Of a stretch of 46,243 nt of DNA, positions 21,514 through 38,822 are shown one piece after another. Within the stretch, counting starts at the first letter, position 1; every line of letters begins with the position of its first letter. The stretch is from positions 1-46,243 of the forward strand of contig DASQHX010000004.1 of assembly GCA_035631875.1 (NCBI GenBank). Direction: 5' to 3'. The notes under the pieces are model-generated. The model searched no databases and had not been told where the DNA came from. It saw only the letters and a list, made by a program, of their open reading frames with translations. The DNA is from Nitrosopumilaceae archaeon. Its GTDB lineage: Archaea; Thermoproteota; Nitrososphaeria; Nitrososphaerales; Nitrosopumilaceae. The translations under genes and the position numbers were made by a program.

Positions 21514-22593
21514 ATGAAAACTCTGTACTTTGGAATAATTGGTGGAATTTTTATCATGGTTATTTTTATCAGTAATACTGCATTAACTGCGCAACAAGAC
21601 TCTAACAACCAATCTACATCAAGCACAACTACAGGAGACTTGGCTACGCGGATTGGAGGTAACGCCATAGGCATCTATTATCCAATGTATGATCTAAGCG
21701 AGCTTCCTCAAGTGCTTGCAGCAAAGAAAGCTTTCTCCATCGTACCATTCGATGTAAACATAAATCCAGAATCTGGACCGGGAACAGAGCCTTCTATATC
21801 TTGGGCAGATGCGATCACCCAGCTCAAGAATACGGGTGACGTAGTTACAGGTTATGTACCTACAGGATACGGAACAAGGACTGTTGCAAATGTAGAAGAT
21901 ATGATATCTGCATACCATCAATTCTACCCCAAACTAGATGGAATAATGTTCGATGAGGTGTCTAGCTCTTCATCAGAATTTACATTTTACCAGACAATCT
22001 CAAACTATGCAAGGTCGCTAGGTTTCTCATACATACGAGCAAACCCAGGAAATTCAATACATCAAGGCGATGTACAACTCTTTGACCATATAGCAATATA
22101 CGAATCTTCAAGATATCCAGATGAATCGACACTTCAATCAAGAACCTTCTATCCTCAATATTCAAAGGATGTAGTTGGTTTTGGTGTCACAATACATTCT
22201 CAGCCAACATATAATTCGACTTGGCTTCATATGGCAACAAAATATCTGAAGTGGGTTTACATCACAGACCAAACAGAACCAAATCCATATGCTGTATTTC
22301 CATCATACTTTAACCAGTATCTTACTGATCTTTCATCTTTAGACATGGCCCTAACAATAAATGATCTGATCAACAATGTAAAATCAATGAATCTACAGGA
22401 AGATGAAACAACAATCTTTGATTCTAAACTTCAGGTAGCAATTAAATCGCTTAACTCAAACAACAATGAAGCCAAGAATCAGCTTAACGCATTTATTCAC
22501 GAGGTTAACGCACAAACTGGAAAGAAGATAACGCAAGATCAAGCAAATCAATTGATACGATCTGCACGAAATATTCTAAACTCAATACACTAG
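21514..22593 (+). CDS. Secreted Spherulin-4-like glycosidase (GH135-type)
   Basis: An N-terminal signal or anchor segment (about residues 5-26) is followed by a Ser/Thr-rich linker and a TIM-barrel-like domain, about residues 50-270. Family signatures are IVPFDVNINPESGPG (76-90), GYVPTGYGTR (113-122) and LDGIMFDEVS (141-150), the last with adjacent acids D147/E148. This matches Spherulin 4, which includes fungal Sph3, an N-acetylgalactosaminidase acting on galactosaminogalactan. A helical tail of about 80 residues follows. The product probably acts outside the cell on a hexosamine polymer; proximity to PelF/PelG-like genes makes it a possible counterpart of the PelA hydrolase. Confidence 0.8.
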   Translation: MKTLYFGIIGGIFIMVIFISNTALTAQQDSNNQSTSSTTTGDLATRIGGNAIGIYYPMYDLSELPQVLAAKKAFSIVPFDVNINPESGPGTEPSISWADAITQLKNTGDVVTGYVPTGYGTRTVANVEDMISAYHQFYPKLDGIMFDEVSSSSSEFTFYQTISNYARSLGFSYIRANPGNSIHQGDVQLFDHIAIYESSRYPDESTLQSRTFYPQYSKDVVGFGVTIHSQPTYNSTWLHMATKYLKWVYITDQTEPNPYAVFPSYFNQYLTDLSSLDMALTINDLINNVKSMNLQEDETTIFDSKLQVAIKSLNSNNNEAKNQLNAFIHEVNAQTGKKITQDQANQLIRSARNILNSIH

Positions 22594-22638: not shown

Positions 22639-23184
22639 TTATCTTTTCTTGATAGACAAGGTTTTTTGTACCTCGTTCATGCTGCTAATGAATTTCTGCT
22701 TTGCTTCATATTCATCTGATACCTTGACAACAATTTCAGATGACGAAAACATTACATCCTTGACTAAAATTGGTGCACTTAGTCCTAACAGCTCACTCAA
22801 TATGTCAAATATGTTGTTAAACTTGGTTCCGTTTTTGTACTTGAAGATTGTATTGCCTTCTGATAGTTTTGGGGGCAATTCTAAAGGAATCACCAACTCT
22901 GGTGAAGTAATTTCTGTAACAAAAGTATTGGTATCATTTTTTATCATCTCGACTAGTTTTTCTTTTTCAGACACAAGCTCATTTTTTATCTTTTCAAGTT
23001 CACCCAATTCGTCATGATACTGTTCTCCTACCATCTTTGCAAATGTGGACTCTGTGACACTCTTTAATGGAACTTCATGAATTCTAAAATTAACTCTGGC
23101 AAGCTCAGCTTCTACATTGGTTAATTGCTGTCTATTGGATTTTATCCTGCCAGCTATCTCTTCAAGATACTGAAAATCAACCAT
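22639..23184 (-). CDS. Coiled-coil protein next to tubulin-like gene
   Basis: The 181-residue protein has two long charged helices with heptad character (residues 5-35 and about 60-95), a middle segment with Pro-rich VIPLELPPKL, and an alpha/beta C-terminal part (VKDVMFSSSEIVVKVSDEYEAKQKFI). It starts 10 bases after the tubulin-like gene and is surely cotranscribed with it. No family is recognised. Its place suggests a partner or regulator of the filament protein, which is inference. Confidence 0.7.
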   Translation of the reverse strand: MVDFQYLEEIAGRIKSNRQQLTNVEAELARVNFRIHEVPLKSVTESTFAKMVGEQYHDELGELEKIKNELVSEKEKLVEMIKNDTNTFVTEITSPELVIPLELPPKLSEGNTIFKYKNGTKFNNIFDILSELLGLSAPILVKDVMFSSSEIVVKVSDEYEAKQKFISSMNEVQKTLSIKKR

Positions 23185-23194
23185 CTTTCAATAC

Positions 23195-24583
23195 CTAACT
23201 AAACTGATGAACTACGTCCATCAGGCTCTGCTTGAATTCTTCTGTAGTCAAACCCCATCTACCATATTCCTCCTTGTAAGCATCCCATGAGACTTCGGCC
23301 TCGCTTGCAATTTCAAGTATTTTTGGTCCTATCGCCTTTGTGTTAACTAGAATTGTCACGTTTGCCTGTTCGCTTTCAAGTATTGGTATCTTGACAAAAA
23401 TCATTCTAGAATCTTCAATGTTAAATCTGTCTTTGATGATTGCCTTGAGCGCATCTCTTTCTTTTACATCAAATTCTCCGCTGACTTTGACTAGTGCACA
23501 GCAAGAATCCTTTGGACCGCCCTTGTCTCGGACATCATTCTCATCAATATCGAACAAAAGTGCGTCTTCTTTTTTGTGAATGTGTTCTACAATTCTTTCC
23601 ATGGTGTTGCTTTTTCCTTTTGACATTAGATCTGTACTCCATATTTTTTCCTCAGATATGATTGGGATGACCCATGGAATGGCAAATTTTGGTCGTTTTG
23701 TTGCAAGCCATGTTCTATAGTTTGACATGTCCCATTCTGTTTCTCTTGCAAATGATGAAACAAACATCGAAATGGCACTTGCTGCAATCAGATTCATACC
23801 GCGATAATCCTTCCAGCCTACTTCTTGTTCTTTTGGAAGATCATCAATTATTGATGGAATCTTGTCCAATTTTTTTTCAAATCTATGAGCTAAGAGTCTT
23901 AGGGTTTTATTTGAAAAGAGTATTGAACAATCACTATATTTTATTTGGTGTTCTAGATTCATCACTATGTTTATTGCAGCAGCCTCAAAAATTATAGGAT
24001 CCCATCCAAACTCTGGTAAAAGTCCTAATGTTGCAATGGTTGCATGCTCTTTAGTATCTTTTTTTATGTATTGGATAAATCCACTTGCAAATGAACTGCC
24101 AGTTCCGCCTCCCATTGCAAACGGTACACAGAATCCCCTTACTGGTTCTGGTGAAAGAGCGGCAATTTGTTTTTGCATATCAAATTTAGTACTTACCTCT
24201 TTTATGAATCGGGTTCTGCCCTCTGCCCAATTTCTTGCTGCTCCTCCTGAACCATGAATTACGTGTTTATCTCTTAGGGCAAAAAGATCAGGATATGATT
24301 GTAAAATGAGATTTGCAGCTCTTGGATCCAAGTCAATTAGCAATGCTCTTGGTATGAGTGGTATCTCTCCACTTCCATATGATGGTGGAAATCTCAGTAT
24401 GGTGCTGCCGTATCTTTTGAGCACTCTGGATTCTTCCTTTTCACCTTTAAGAGTAGGTTTGAGCGGGTCTGCACCTACATCAAGAAGTAATCTTCTGTAT
24501 GCTTCTGCACCCAATCCTATGCCGCAATGACCAAAACATGTCATTAGCACCGGGGCTGGTGGCAGTGGATCAAACTTTGACAA
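23195..24583 (-). CDS. Tubulin/FtsZ-superfamily GTPase, tubulin-like (artubulin-type)
   Basis: At 462 residues this is tubulin-sized. The tubulin landmarks appear in order: CFGHCGIGLGAE (16-27, the GQCGNQ loop), LIDLDPRA (82-89), GSGGAARNWAEG (111-122, compare DAANNxARG), the GTP signature GGGTGSS (158-164), EAAAINIVMNLEHQIKYSD (200-218) with N205 at the guanine-binding Asn, and a C-terminal domain with VIPIISEEKIW and EEYGRWGLTTEEF. The T7 loop reads WDMSNYRTWL (284-293): Asp285 is kept but Asn288 replaces the catalytic acid, as beta-tubulin also lacks it. Tubulin homologues are reported from Nitrosarchaeum. It is likely cytoskeletal. Confidence 0.82.
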   Translation of the reverse strand: MSKFDPLPPAPVLMTCFGHCGIGLGAEAYRRLLLDVGADPLKPTLKGEKEESRVLKRYGSTILRFPPSYGSGEIPLIPRALLIDLDPRAANLILQSYPDLFALRDKHVIHGSGGAARNWAEGRTRFIKEVSTKFDMQKQIAALSPEPVRGFCVPFAMGGGTGSSFASGFIQYIKKDTKEHATIATLGLLPEFGWDPIIFEAAAINIVMNLEHQIKYSDCSILFSNKTLRLLAHRFEKKLDKIPSIIDDLPKEQEVGWKDYRGMNLIAASAISMFVSSFARETEWDMSNYRTWLATKRPKFAIPWVIPIISEEKIWSTDLMSKGKSNTMERIVEHIHKKEDALLFDIDENDVRDKGGPKDSCCALVKVSGEFDVKERDALKAIIKDRFNIEDSRMIFVKIPILESEQANVTILVNTKAIGPKILEIASEAEVSWDAYKEEYGRWGLTTEEFKQSLMDVVHQFS

Positions 24584-34261: not shown

Positions 34262-35641
34262 TTGAAACATCGTCTCGAGATCGTCATTTCCATAGGTTGT
34301 GTGCTATCCATCATTGCATCTTTTTCTTTCTTAAACCAAAGTGCATTAATTCATTCTGGTGAAACTACACAATCAAACAATGAGATGCCAAATGGAAACT
34401 ATATTGTTCTAACTGGATGCACCACGGATTCTGATGGAACAGGCAGGACAGATGTCTTTTGCCCAAATCATGATGTATTTCACTTGTCAAGAGACCCGCC
34501 AATAGCAGAATCAAAATGGACTGATGTACAATTGACGATAGATAACGGTCAATATACTATACAGTATACTACTCCAATAGGAACTAACCAATACACATTG
34601 GTTGCTTACAATACATCTACTCCAATTAAAAAAATATTCAGTTCCCCAAGTTATGCTGTTCAGCAAATTAGCCAATCAGTGGAATCTGAAAAGCAATCTA
34701 TAGGAAATATATTTGAACAAGCGACACAAACCTTCAATGCAAAACCTCCTCCAACAAAAGAGGAACTATATCAATATGCTTTGCAAGTAATTAACCAAGA
34801 CAGGAAAGCTCATAGATTAAACCCTGTAGCATTAAGCAATATTTCTTCTGCACAGAATCATGCAGACGATATGCTAAATTCAGGATACTTTTCGCATTGG
34901 AATACTGATGGCGTCAAACCTTATGTAACATATACCAAACTTGGTGGAAGAGGAAATGTAGATGAAAATATTAGCGTTACAGCAGCTTACTGCCCTTCGT
35001 CAAGCTGTATGCCAAATTCTTTTGATCCTTTCAAACAAATCAATGACAGCGAATACAACATGATGTACAAGGATGCAGGCTCTTACTGGGGACACAGAGA
35101 TAACATTCTCAATCCATATCATACCGATGTGAATATTGGAATTGCCTATAGCAATGAGAGATTTTATTTCGTAGAACATTTTGAGAGCAATATTGTAAAA
35201 TGGCAAACCATCAAACTAGAGGGTAACCAACTTCATCTAGTAGGACAGATGCCTTCAGGATATTCATTGTATCAAATAGAAGTGTTTGCAGATCCTAGTC
35301 CCAAGTCTCTGACAAATAATGATCTTAATGGAGCATCGCCGTATAATTTTGGATATTATGATCAAGGAGACTTTGTAGGAATAATATTGCCACAACCAGA
35401 CTCTAATTCACATTATCCGGAATGTTCCCAAGGAAAGGCAATACTTGAAACCACAAAGGGGAAACTATGTACAGACTATGTAACCTATTCTAATGTAAGC
35501 ACAATTGGCAACGGAATAGACATATCATTTGATGTTTCAAAATGGATGGGTTCAGGATTGCATACCGTTTATGTTACACTGAAAGATCAAAATGGCATTC
35601 AAGCAGACACTACATCTCTGACTCTGGAATATCTGAAATAA
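34262..35641 (+). CDS. Secreted CAP-domain (SCP/PR1-like) protein
   Basis: The likely start is TTG 34262, giving a signal-anchor (about residues 7-24, IVISIGCVLSIIASFSFL). A beta-rich segment follows, then a CAP domain at about residues 165-320 with ALQVINQDRKAHRLNPVAL, AQNHADDMLNSGYFSHWN and YWGHRDNILNP...NIGIAY. These carry the His and Glu/Asp cavity residues of the family. The C-terminal 130 residues are another beta domain. Extracellular role; CAP proteins bind lipids or act in surface interactions, and this one's ligand is unknown. Confidence 0.85.
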   Translation: MKHRLEIVISIGCVLSIIASFSFLNQSALIHSGETTQSNNEMPNGNYIVLTGCTTDSDGTGRTDVFCPNHDVFHLSRDPPIAESKWTDVQLTIDNGQYTIQYTTPIGTNQYTLVAYNTSTPIKKIFSSPSYAVQQISQSVESEKQSIGNIFEQATQTFNAKPPPTKEELYQYALQVINQDRKAHRLNPVALSNISSAQNHADDMLNSGYFSHWNTDGVKPYVTYTKLGGRGNVDENISVTAAYCPSSSCMPNSFDPFKQINDSEYNMMYKDAGSYWGHRDNILNPYHTDVNIGIAYSNERFYFVEHFESNIVKWQTIKLEGNQLHLVGQMPSGYSLYQIEVFADPSPKSLTNNDLNGASPYNFGYYDQGDFVGIILPQPDSNSHYPECSQGKAILETTKGKLCTDYVTYSNVSTIGNGIDISFDVSKWMGSGLHTVYVTLKDQNGIQADTTSLTLEYLK

Positions 35642-35729
35642 GTATGTCAAAGAACATTTAGTACTAAAAATTCCGTAGTCGATTAGTAACACTTCCAGTC
35701 CTAGTTGATCCTTGTAATGAAAAGTAATT

Positions 35730-35972
35730 TTATGGATAGGGATTTTTTATTTTAATCTGAGATGTAACATTTTGCACATCAGACGACACCATTTTTATTT
35801 CAGACACAACGTCTTTACCTTTGACGGTGACATTGGAAGTTGCCTTTTCCGTGGAACTAAGTGTCTTCTCAACTACTGGGCGCGCCAAGTCAAATATGTT
35901 TGTAAAGTAGAATATGGCAACTATTGCAATTACTGCTATTACTATGCCTATAGCTGTACCGTTTTTGCCCAT
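35730..35972 (-). CDS. Small membrane-anchored protein (80 aa)
   Basis: ATG 35972 is chosen: MGKNGTAIGIVIAVIAIVAI opens with a transmembrane helix (about 7-25). The rest is a Ser/Thr/Val-rich periplasmic-like helix or coil (VEKTLSSTEKATSNVTVKGK). The longer frame to 36065 adds a Cys-rich stretch without support. Function is unknown. Confidence 0.6.
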   Translation of the reverse strand: MGKNGTAIGIVIAVIAIVAIFYFTNIFDLARPVVEKTLSSTEKATSNVTVKGKDVVSEIKMVSSDVQNVTSQIKIKNPYP

Positions 35973-36060
35973 TGTGGTATAATGTGATTTTTTTAATAAA
36001 ACGTTAACGCATAAATCATCAGTTTCACAGCAAGTTAAAACATAATCACAGGTATTAGAA

Positions 36061-36101
36061 AACAATGTTCACTAGTATTTTAAAATAACAATGTTCGCTA
36101 G
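36061..36101. promoter_or_regulatory. Direct repeat AACAATGTTC(A/G)CTAG
   Basis: Two 15-mers, 36061-36075 and 36087-36101, differ at one base and are 26 bases apart. They lie in the divergent spacer between the small membrane protein gene and the first Ig-repeat protein gene. The related AACAATGTTCTAG occurs near 3549 upstream of a winged-helix gene. Confidence 0.5.
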
Positions 36102-36234
36102 ACTCGAATCATTGATCATTTAAAAAAATATCTATTTGTACATTCACAAAAAAATTTCTATTTATCCATTACTACTTTTAGTTACTGATGAGAGAGAAGT
36201 TTTACATAAATATTTTAAAAACAAAATGTTCACA

Positions 36235-37368
36235 ATGAAAAAAGCTGTCGGTGTCGCACTTGGGATCCTGGCCTTTGTCATAGCTGGAGCTTCAGTGTAT
36301 GGAATTTTTAGTTTAAATGAAACAATTCAGGCAAAACCAAATCAAATTCAAGTATCAAACTATTCGGCACAAATTGGTTCATTACAACCACAAATCAATT
36401 CAATTAGTAACAATGTGTCATCTTTGAATACACTAAAGGGTGACATCACAGACATTAGGGGAAAATTATTTGATTTGGAATCCAAGATAAGTCAGGCACA
36501 ACAAACTTCAGTGTCTGTGAAACCGGAAATACTCACAAGCCAGTCTACCTATTTCCCAGGTGAAATATTATACATTGTAGCAATTGGTTTTGATCCACAA
36601 GAAGCAGTTCAAATACAATTACTTGACAATTATGGATTTGCAATAATGCAAAAAGATGTTTTAACAGATTCATCTGGAAGAGTTTTGGATTATCTACAAC
36701 TACCTAGCAATCTAGAACCAGGAAGCTTTCAGGTTAAACTAGTCTCAGGACAGCTTACGGCCTCACAATCAGTTACAATCATGCAATCAAGTCCAGTCTC
36801 TGTGTCATCATCTTATCCGTCATATCTATTCACTGCACAAACAGACAAGACCATATATCAAACAGGAGAAGAAATTGGGATCTTTGGAATAGGCGTTCCT
36901 AACACCAGTGTTACGGCCATTCTCACAAGTCCATTAGGGACAACATCCGAAGCAGTTACGACGGTGCAATCGTATGGCACTTATAACATGTTTTTTTCTG
37001 ATTCACCGCCTTTTGAGACAGGAACTTGGTCGATAGTAGTAAAAGATCAAGGAATAGAAAAAATACTCTTTGTCACTGTACAATTGGGCAATTCTAGTCC
37101 GCCTACATTTACCGCACAAACCGATAAGACCATATATAAAAAAGGAGACCTAATTCAGATTTCTGGAACAGGTCCATCTTATGCCAGTGTAAATACTATC
37201 TTGACAAGCCCATCGGGAATAAAATACAATGGTGCTGCTACCATAAACTTTGACGGATCATACAATATTGATTATTCTACTTTGCCTTCATTTGAAACAG
37301 GAAATTGGTACGTCACACTCGCCGAAGGATCACAAGTAAAAGTAATCTCAATCTTTTTGGAGCCATGA
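36235..37368 (+). CDS. Surface protein with Ig-like repeats (copy 1)
   Basis: Start ATG 36235 (MKKAVGVALGILAFVIAGASV) gives a signal-anchor helix; ATG 36226 is an alternative. A coiled-coil stalk follows (SAQIGSLQPQINSISNNVSS...DLESKISQAQ, about residues 35-90). Then come a beta domain and two about 85-residue repeats with TAQTDKTIYxxG and ETGxWxxxxxxQG. The protein probably lies in or on the S-layer. The next gene begins in the stop codon (ATGA at 37365-37368) and encodes a longer relative, so the pair is translationally coupled. Confidence 0.8.
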   Translation: MKKAVGVALGILAFVIAGASVYGIFSLNETIQAKPNQIQVSNYSAQIGSLQPQINSISNNVSSLNTLKGDITDIRGKLFDLESKISQAQQTSVSVKPEILTSQSTYFPGEILYIVAIGFDPQEAVQIQLLDNYGFAIMQKDVLTDSSGRVLDYLQLPSNLEPGSFQVKLVSGQLTASQSVTIMQSSPVSVSSSYPSYLFTAQTDKTIYQTGEEIGIFGIGVPNTSVTAILTSPLGTTSEAVTTVQSYGTYNMFFSDSPPFETGTWSIVVKDQGIEKILFVTVQLGNSSPPTFTAQTDKTIYKKGDLIQISGTGPSYASVNTILTSPSGIKYNGAATINFDGSYNIDYSTLPSFETGNWYVTLAEGSQVKVISIFLEP

Positions 37369-37370
37369 AA

Positions 37371-38822
37371 ATGAAAAAAGCTGTTGGTGTCGCACTTGGC
37401 ATCTTGGCCTTTGTCATAGCTGGAGCTTCAGTGTATGGAATTTTTAGTTTAAATGAAACAATTCAGGCAAAACCAAATCAAATTCAAGTATCAAATTATT
37501 CGGCACAAATTGGTTCACTACAACCACAAATCAATTCAATTAGTAACAATGTGTCATCTTTGAATACACTAAAGGGTGACATCACAGACATTAGGGGAAA
37601 ATTATCTGATCTGGAATCCAAGATAAGTCAAGCACAGCAACCTCCTTTGGCATCTGTGAAACCTGTAGTAGTATTGGGCAGGTCTATTTATCTTCAAGGT
37701 GACAGTGCATACATAAGTGCCGCTGGTCTTGATCCACAAGAAGCAGTTCAAATACAATTACTTGACAATAATGGATTTGTAGTAATTCAAGAACAGAGCA
37801 GGTCAGATTCAGCTGGAAGATTGACATTAAGTCTACCACTTCCGAGCACCGTGGCACCAGGAAACTTTCTGATCAAGATAATCTCAGGTCAACAAACGGC
37901 TTTGCAGCCAATTGTGATTGTATCCTCAACTCAGAGTTCAGGTTCTGTACTATTAACTGGTTCATATCCGTTCTTTGCACAAACAGATCAGACTGTGTAT
38001 CTGCCAAGTGGTACAATTAAGGTCACTGGTACTGGTGTGCCAAACACCACCATTACTGGTACTCTGACAGGTCCATCAGAAAGAACATACACTTCAAACA
38101 CAACGATAAGGGCTGATGGCACTTTTGCCATATTTTATTCCGATCCACGCACTTTTGACACAGGATACTGGCATGTCACTTTGAACAGTCAAGGACTAAC
38201 CAAAGTACTTTATCTTAGAATAATACCGCCAATTATTAGTTCATCTGGCAGTTGGTACCCATTTACTGCACAGACTAGCTCTTCCATTTACCAAGCAGGA
38301 GACCAAATTACTGTTTCAGGAAGTGGTGCACCTTACACCACAGTTAATTCTGTTTTGACAAGTCCATCAGGAATAACATACACATCTACTACGACGACAA
38401 GATCTGATGGTTCTTACCGTCTGTCCTATTTTACGTCACAATCATCTGAATTGGGATATTGGACTGTCAACTTAGCCAACCAAGGACAAACCAAGCAAGT
38501 TTTCATTTATCTTGGAGAACCTGGTAGTACATCAAGTGGTAGTTCTTCCACCACGTTTACAGCACAAACTGACAGGATAATCTACAAGCAGGGAGACCAA
38601 ATTACCATTTCAGGAACAGGCAAGCCTTACACTGCAGTCAAGGCAACTTTGACAAGCCCATCAGGAATAACATATGATAATGCTGTCACTGCACATCTTG
38701 ATGGCTCATACGTTCTTTCCTTTACTACATCACCAGTATATGAAACAGGAAATTGGTACATCTCAATAACTAATTGGTCGCTAACAAAAATAATTTCTAT
38801 ATATTTAGAACCAATGAATTGA
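37371..38822 (+). CDS. Surface protein with Ig-like repeats (copy 2)
   Basis: The N-terminal 88 residues are almost identical to copy 1 (MKKAVGVALGILAFVIAGASVYG...), then a beta domain and three about 95-residue repeats (AQTDQTVY, AQTSSSIY, AQTDRIIY starts; YETGNWYISITNW at the end). An ATG six bases earlier (37365) overlaps the stop of copy 1 and may be used. The repeat count differs from copy 1, typical of expanding surface proteins. Its role as S-layer or adhesin is inferred from repeats and anchor. Confidence 0.8.
   Translation: MKKAVGVALGILAFVIAGASVYGIFSLNETIQAKPNQIQVSNYSAQIGSLQPQINSISNNVSSLNTLKGDITDIRGKLSDLESKISQAQQPPLASVKPVVVLGRSIYLQGDSAYISAAGLDPQEAVQIQLLDNNGFVVIQEQSRSDSAGRLTLSLPLPSTVAPGNFLIKIISGQQTALQPIVIVSSTQSSGSVLLTGSYPFFAQTDQTVYLPSGTIKVTGTGVPNTTITGTLTGPSERTYTSNTTIRADGTFAIFYSDPRTFDTGYWHVTLNSQGLTKVLYLRIIPPIISSSGSWYPFTAQTSSSIYQAGDQITVSGSGAPYTTVNSVLTSPSGITYTSTTTTRSDGSYRLSYFTSQSSELGYWTVNLANQGQTKQVFIYLGEPGSTSSGSSSTTFTAQTDRIIYKQGDQITISGTGKPYTAVKATLTSPSGITYDNAVTAHLDGSYVLSFTTSPVYETGNWYISITNWSLTKIISIYLEPMN

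Follow-up and report, generated by a model that had tools for sequence, protein, structure and literature searches.

A near-invariant asparagine at the catalytic T7 position and a constant coiled-coil partner gene in archaeal artubulins

Two traits were found to run through the artubulins, a family of archaeal tubulin-like proteins: an asparagine in the T7 loop, at the position of the acid used in GTP hydrolysis and accompanied by an arginine in the T3 loop, and a coiled-coil protein gene that constantly follows the artubulin gene. It is these family-wide traits that are new here. The gene from which they were traced is an ordinary member of the known family, and lies in the 46,243 nucleotides analysed from contig DASQHX010000004.1 of a Nitrosopumilaceae archaeon of the ammonia-oxidising type (hereafter the window). 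The searched literature passages, which included few subscription papers, held no description of a T7 asparagine with a T3 arginine or of a dedicated partner, and an earlier description is possible; the searched passages of the original family description (PMC3349469) contained no discussion of the T7 asparagine or of a coiled-coil partner.

Since artubulins lie close to the base of the tubulin family, their behaviour bears on whether hydrolysis-driven dynamics are ancestral to tubulins or were lost in artubulins. The lineage that carries them includes cultured ammonia oxidisers, and no experimental study of artubulin function was found in the parts of the literature that were searched.

The artubulin gene and its family

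The open reading frame that the initial annotation had named as a tubulin-like GTPase, giving no strand, is real; it lies on the minus strand and is free of internal stops from its TTG start (Table 1). Its product matched the Pfam family Tubulin (PF00091, E = 4e-15, above the curated cut-off), and searches of NCBIfam and PHROGs matched no family. All the motifs cited for it were found, namely GGAARNWAEG (T3), GGGTGSS (G-box), EAAAINIVMNLEHQIKYSDCS, SEEKIW, EEYGRWGLTTEEF and WDMSNYRTWL, which contains N288. Upstream of the gene, 182 nt hold no listed gene on the same strand. The window contig bears an archaeal 16S rRNA gene, and the source genome (1.76 Mb, 99.99% complete) has Nitrosopumilales/Thaumarchaeota MAGs as its closest relatives. 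Elsewhere in the window (34262-38822, plus strand), consecutive genes encode a protein with a CAP domain and two surface-like proteins with MG2 domains.

Table 1. Positions of the artubulin gene, its partner gene and their parts in the window
Feature	Position	Strand	Remarks
Artubulin gene	23195..24583	(-)	462 aa, TTG start; Pfam, relatives, tree
T3 loop GGAARNWAEG, residues 113-122	24218..24247	(-)	R117 for alpha-tubulin N101 in 37/37 aligned members
G-box GGGTG, residues 158-162, intact	24098..24112	(-)	alignment
Residues 280-293, T7 loop and beginning of helix H8, RETEWDMSNYRTWL	23705..23746	(-)	longest near-invariant run of the protein
E283 codon, invariant acid at alpha-tubulin N249 position	23735..23737	(-)	alignments
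N288 codon, at catalytic-acid position (alpha-tubulin E254, FtsZ D212)	23720..23722	(-)	MAFFT alignment
Partner gene	22639..23184	(-)	181 aa, begins some 10 nt past the artubulin stop; coiled-coil hairpin and small alpha/beta domain predicted
Partner residues 1-92, predicted helical hairpin (H4-37, H40-52, H59-92)	22909..23184	(-)	AlphaFold, mean pLDDT 90
Partner residues 106-180, predicted beta-alpha-beta-beta-alpha domain	22645..22869	(-)	AlphaFold; homologues elsewhere

Artubulins were described in 2012 in Nitrosarchaeum (Yutin and Koonin, PMC3349469) and are known from Nitrosotenuis uzonensis (PMC3835317). The window gene is 76-82% identical to the Nitrosarchaeum and Nitrosotenuis loci over 457-462 residues and shares their motifs, with the same T7 asparagine in all members checked. 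The artubulin relationship named in the initial annotation is supported. Identities of 76-98% were seen for relatives in Nitrosotalea, Nitrosotenuis, Nitrosarchaeum and some Nitrosopumilus. In a phylum sample of 398 genomes, no artubulin was found outside the window's family; relatives in deeper lineages of the order, at 50-59% identity, came from a wider class sample. One artubulin contig (BMAH01000059.1) is filed under a gammaproteobacterium, a record that is very likely mislabelled or contaminated. In four genomes from other families of the order, open frames some 900 aa long showed a weak match (31-34%) to artubulin residues 128-214, and possibly encode large tubulin-like proteins. The sole match in viruses was rejected, being a structural gene of a phage in which AARNWAE occurs by chance.

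In a maximum-likelihood tree, artubulins and the eukaryotic and Asgard tubulins formed one clade (100/99) with CetZ and FtsZ outside, and the artubulins including the window gene formed a single clade of their own (100/99); the tree has long branches, and AtubB is represented in it by only the first two thirds of its sequence. Of the reference sequences, which included beta-tubulin and E. coli FtsZ, those of alpha-tubulin, gamma-tubulin and CetZ1 were checked against PDB chains. The gene thus groups with tubulins and not inside FtsZ or CetZ, in agreement with the tubulin-like character first assigned to it. The exact position of artubulins is left open in published work as well (PMC13394414, PMC9871819). 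By hhalign, the artubulin profile matched tubulins from end to end (99.3%, E = 1e-20). The closest solved structures by sequence are those of Asgard AtubA/B and OdinTubulin, with AtubB as the best PDB match of the profile (E = 7e-22).

The AlphaFold model of artubulin (mean pLDDT 50, about 30 in the T7 region) was too poor for residue-level alignment of T7 or for inspection of the active site. All the structural matches listed for this low-confidence model were tubulins (best Foldseek E = 1.5e-13), and the top VIA score (Z 13.2, with 191 residues aligned and rmsd 2.9) went to a chain of gamma-tubulin, tied with alpha/beta-tubulin.

Asparagine in the T7 loop and arginine in the T3 loop

When artubulins were aligned by MAFFT with alpha-, beta-, gamma- and Asgard tubulins, CetZ and FtsZ, ETEWDMSN stood against ALNVDLTE of alpha-tubulin, which pairs E283 with N249, D285 with D251 and N288 with E254. 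A pairwise phmmer comparison with OdinTubulin gave the same register for N288 at a weak score, and one hhalign run shifted N288 by a few residues at low local confidence. In helix H8, the pattern of hydrophobic residues (M286, Y289 and L293 against L252, F255 and L259) favours the register of MAFFT and phmmer, and the equivalence of N288 with E254 appears well supported. The asparagine first reported at the catalytic T7 position is placed there by two independent alignments.

The initial annotation had treated this asparagine as a property of a single gene, but it is family-wide, being found in 78 of 79 artubulin loci from named genomes and in 62 of the 63 site-covering sequences of a second genome sample that overlaps the first. 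The one exception is a serine in a member of the window's genus, and Asp or Glu never occurred. With the window included, the codons at this position were AAC (62), AAT (17) and AGC (1). In the two genomes that hold a pair of artubulins (pairs 85% and 93% identical), all copies have N288. The longest near-invariant stretch of the protein runs from R280 to L293 and exceeds the T3 loop; synonymous variation within it is free. Near-invariance of the residue together with free synonymous codons indicates that the amide is under purifying selection and is not a product of decay.

Catalytic interfaces in our alignments carry Asp or Glu at the N288 position (alpha-tubulin, AtubB, FtsZ, CetZ and OdinTubulin, with Glu in AtubB and OdinTubulin), and the acid is missing from artubulin, beta-tubulin, gamma-tubulin and AtubA. 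That beta-tubulin also lacks the acid, as was stated initially, is true, and gamma-tubulin (Gly, in a T7 loop reading NNDLIG) and AtubA (Lys, in a protein paired with AtubB) belong to the same list. The T7 acid thus marks catalytic interfaces, not membership of the tubulins. In alpha/beta-tubulin, K254 of beta leaves the alpha site unhydrolysed, and K248 of AtubA is thought to act likewise (PMC13394414).

The nucleotide-binding motifs T1-T6 and the G-box were found (GHCGIGLG, DLDP, GGAARN, GGGTG, N225 and N264), and D84, the GGGTG G-box, N225 and N264 of the GTP site are conserved across artubulins, which suggests that artubulin binds GTP. The T3 loop of tubulins senses the gamma-phosphate. 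The second invariant change of artubulins, from N101 of alpha-tubulin to R117, falls in this loop and would concern the same active site as N288. Beside N288, all 37 aligned artubulins keep the acids E281, E283 and D285. Where the T7 loop had been called non-catalytic, the replacement of its acid stands; the loss of catalysis may follow from it, subject to the invariance of these three acids and of R117.

The coiled-coil partner gene

Artubulin had initially been regarded as a single gene, which is correct in that there is no second tubulin, but an adjacent coiled-coil gene is always present. It was counted by us in 86 of 86 genomes with a clear artubulin (400-genome class sample), lies directly downstream at 6-41 nt in 71 named loci, and is the sole neighbour kept across clades; upstream SHOCT, TPR and Na/H-exchanger genes are common to close relatives only. 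Three genomes in which no artubulin was detected hold the partner as a pseudogene remnant with stops or frame breaks; where artubulin has been lost, the partner gene is decaying. On the other side of the partner in the window, a convergent gene for a Spherulin4-family protein (21514-22593, plus strand) is not kept at the relatives' loci.

The partner was modelled confidently by AlphaFold (pLDDT 90) as a helical hairpin (residues 4-92) followed by a beta-alpha-beta-beta-alpha domain, and matched no family in Pfam, NCBIfam or PHROGs. Its E8 is invariant, further charged residues are conserved, and its identity between deep clades is 25-35%, against 54-59% for artubulin. Several assignments were tried and rejected. 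Pcc1 of KEOPS has a similar order of beta-alpha-beta-beta-alpha elements, but hhalign against 30 Pcc1 proteins of the order gave 0.1% probability. For Snf7 there was no Pfam match, just weak and scattered coiled-coil matches. Comparison with the PDB returned generic coiled coils only (SerRS arm, Z 7.4; tubulin cofactor A, Z 6.5, not meaningful), with the C-terminal domain barely covered. In Nitrosarchaeum a CdvB/Snf7-like gene precedes artubulin, by our own reading of the locus and according to PMC3349469, whereas the source genome has no such neighbour: its Snf7 genes are on contig C9, and artubulin is on contig C4 with no Snf7 or CdvB gene adjacent.

Two other families of the order also have homologues of the partner, there without artubulin: full-length ones in one family and a shorter version of the C-terminal half in the other. 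No hidden artubulin was found beside them. The full-length homologues at five loci stand between radical-SAM-like and AMP-ligase-like genes, near flagellin/archaellum-like genes; the shorter ones, at nine loci, mostly share a conserved position next to Nep1-like and RNase P-like (Rpr2-like) genes, these neighbours being named by reading of the sequences. Since the homologues stand alone in these families, the domain predates or outlives its pairing with artubulin and has a further role. As a constant companion, the partner is a candidate for the missing protein in a reconstitution of artubulin.

Proposed slow hydrolysis and its alternatives

We propose that artubulin is a genuine GTP-binding member of the tubulin family, encoded together with its own dedicated coiled-coil partner as a two-gene unit. 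Having bound GTP, for which the basis is its conserved motifs, artubulin would polymerise head to tail into protofilaments as expected from its family. Because the incoming subunit would offer Asn, not Asp or Glu, at the E254 position, GTP at the longitudinal interfaces would be trapped there and hydrolysed slowly or not at all. The invariant amide at the place of the catalytic acid thus predicts no GTP turnover and stable filaments, and with little or no hydrolysis the filaments would be long-lived, their turnover and placement being set by something else. Strict linkage makes the partner the simplest candidate, its hairpin coiled coil binding or cross-linking the filament. To this GTP-dependent, slowly hydrolysing polymer with turnover set by the partner we give about an even chance. 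We hold more tentatively, and at clearly less than even, that artubulins are a family-wide natural class of tubulins with filament turnover independent of GTP hydrolysis, in which the site was rebuilt on either side of the gamma-phosphate by E254N in T7 and N101R in T3 and a dedicated coiled-coil protein took over filament control, so that the two make up an archaeal cytoskeleton of two components.

The nearest model is provided by engineered human alpha-E254N microtubules, which show no GTP hydrolysis and no catastrophes during growth (PMC8764682; PDB 7sja). The residue and its position are the same, and there hydrolysis is blocked and the microtubules are stable. However, the human change was made in the laboratory and affects one of the two subunits of a heterodimer, whereas the asparagine of artubulin is natural, in an apparent homo-oligomer, and comes with E283 and R117; a homopolymer may therefore behave otherwise. 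No report of polymerisation or GTP binding by any artubulin was found in the parts of the literature searched. Against slow hydrolysis, the invariant E281, E283 and D285 could partly replace the acid and R117 could assist catalysis in cis, so that residual catalysis is possible. Extended to full activity, this becomes a serious rival, in which artubulin still hydrolyses GTP with E283, D285 or E281 taking over as the acid, R117 helping in cis, and forms a dynamic filament. The invariance of all four residues in 37 aligned members, at two of which (E283 and R117) alpha-tubulin has Asn, speaks for it, and concerted changes to either side of the gamma-phosphate suit a rebuilt site better than a dead one; but the aligned catalytic members of the superfamily (alpha-tubulin, AtubB, FtsZ and CetZ) retain the acid at the N288 position, and beta-tubulin and AtubA, having no acid at the interface, leave that site inactive (PMC13394414). 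On balance we consider such a rewired site a fair possibility, though less likely than slow hydrolysis.

Hydrolysis might instead take place only when the partner is bound, the coiled-coil protein completing the active site or acting as an activating factor. Its strict presence and adjacency, its decay where artubulin is lost, and its invariant E8 and conserved charged residues would fit, but the partner has homologues in genomes without artubulin and is much more variable than artubulin, unlike a catalytic module, and we think this improbable. To an equally small degree, artubulin might be a non-polymerising, GTP-loaded scaffold or nucleator. Gamma-tubulin, the nucleator for alpha/beta-tubulin, is likewise a single tubulin without the E254 acid, is among the best eukaryotic sequence matches of artubulin, and gave the best structural match of the weak model; it differs in having Gly, not Asn, and in keeping Asn at the N101 and N249 positions. 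The T7/H8 block of tubulins contacts the neighbouring subunit, and its extreme conservation in artubulins argues for a preserved longitudinal interface; moreover, the genome has no alpha/beta-like tubulin to nucleate. Finally, beta-tubulin and AtubA, which have no acid, pair with a catalytic subunit (PMC13394414), and artubulin might form a heterodimer with a second tubulin having an acidic T7 loop, as in alpha/beta, BtubA/B and AtubA/B, each of which has a second tubulin with a complementary T7. The search for such a paralogue, which the initial annotation had suggested, found none in the 99.99% complete source genome, and the genomes with two artubulins have Asn in both. The heterodimer is largely refuted and would need a very divergent tubulin to have been missed, which we regard as highly improbable.

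Besides artubulin, the PF00091 search of the source genome yielded only one superfamily gene, a degenerate FtsZ of 317 aa with a G-box reading NLAGKSGA and a gap in place of T7 (contig C11, about 336910-337359). The FtsZ homologue of N. maritimus has no T7 loop and did not polymerise in yeast (PMC3684127). One other genome, in which contamination is possible, has four superfamily genes. Two are artubulins, 85% identical and each with its own partner; of the other two, both FtsZ, one looks intact (INIDFAD) and one is degenerate. A degenerate FtsZ of the NLAGKSGA type is present in nearly all related genomes checked.
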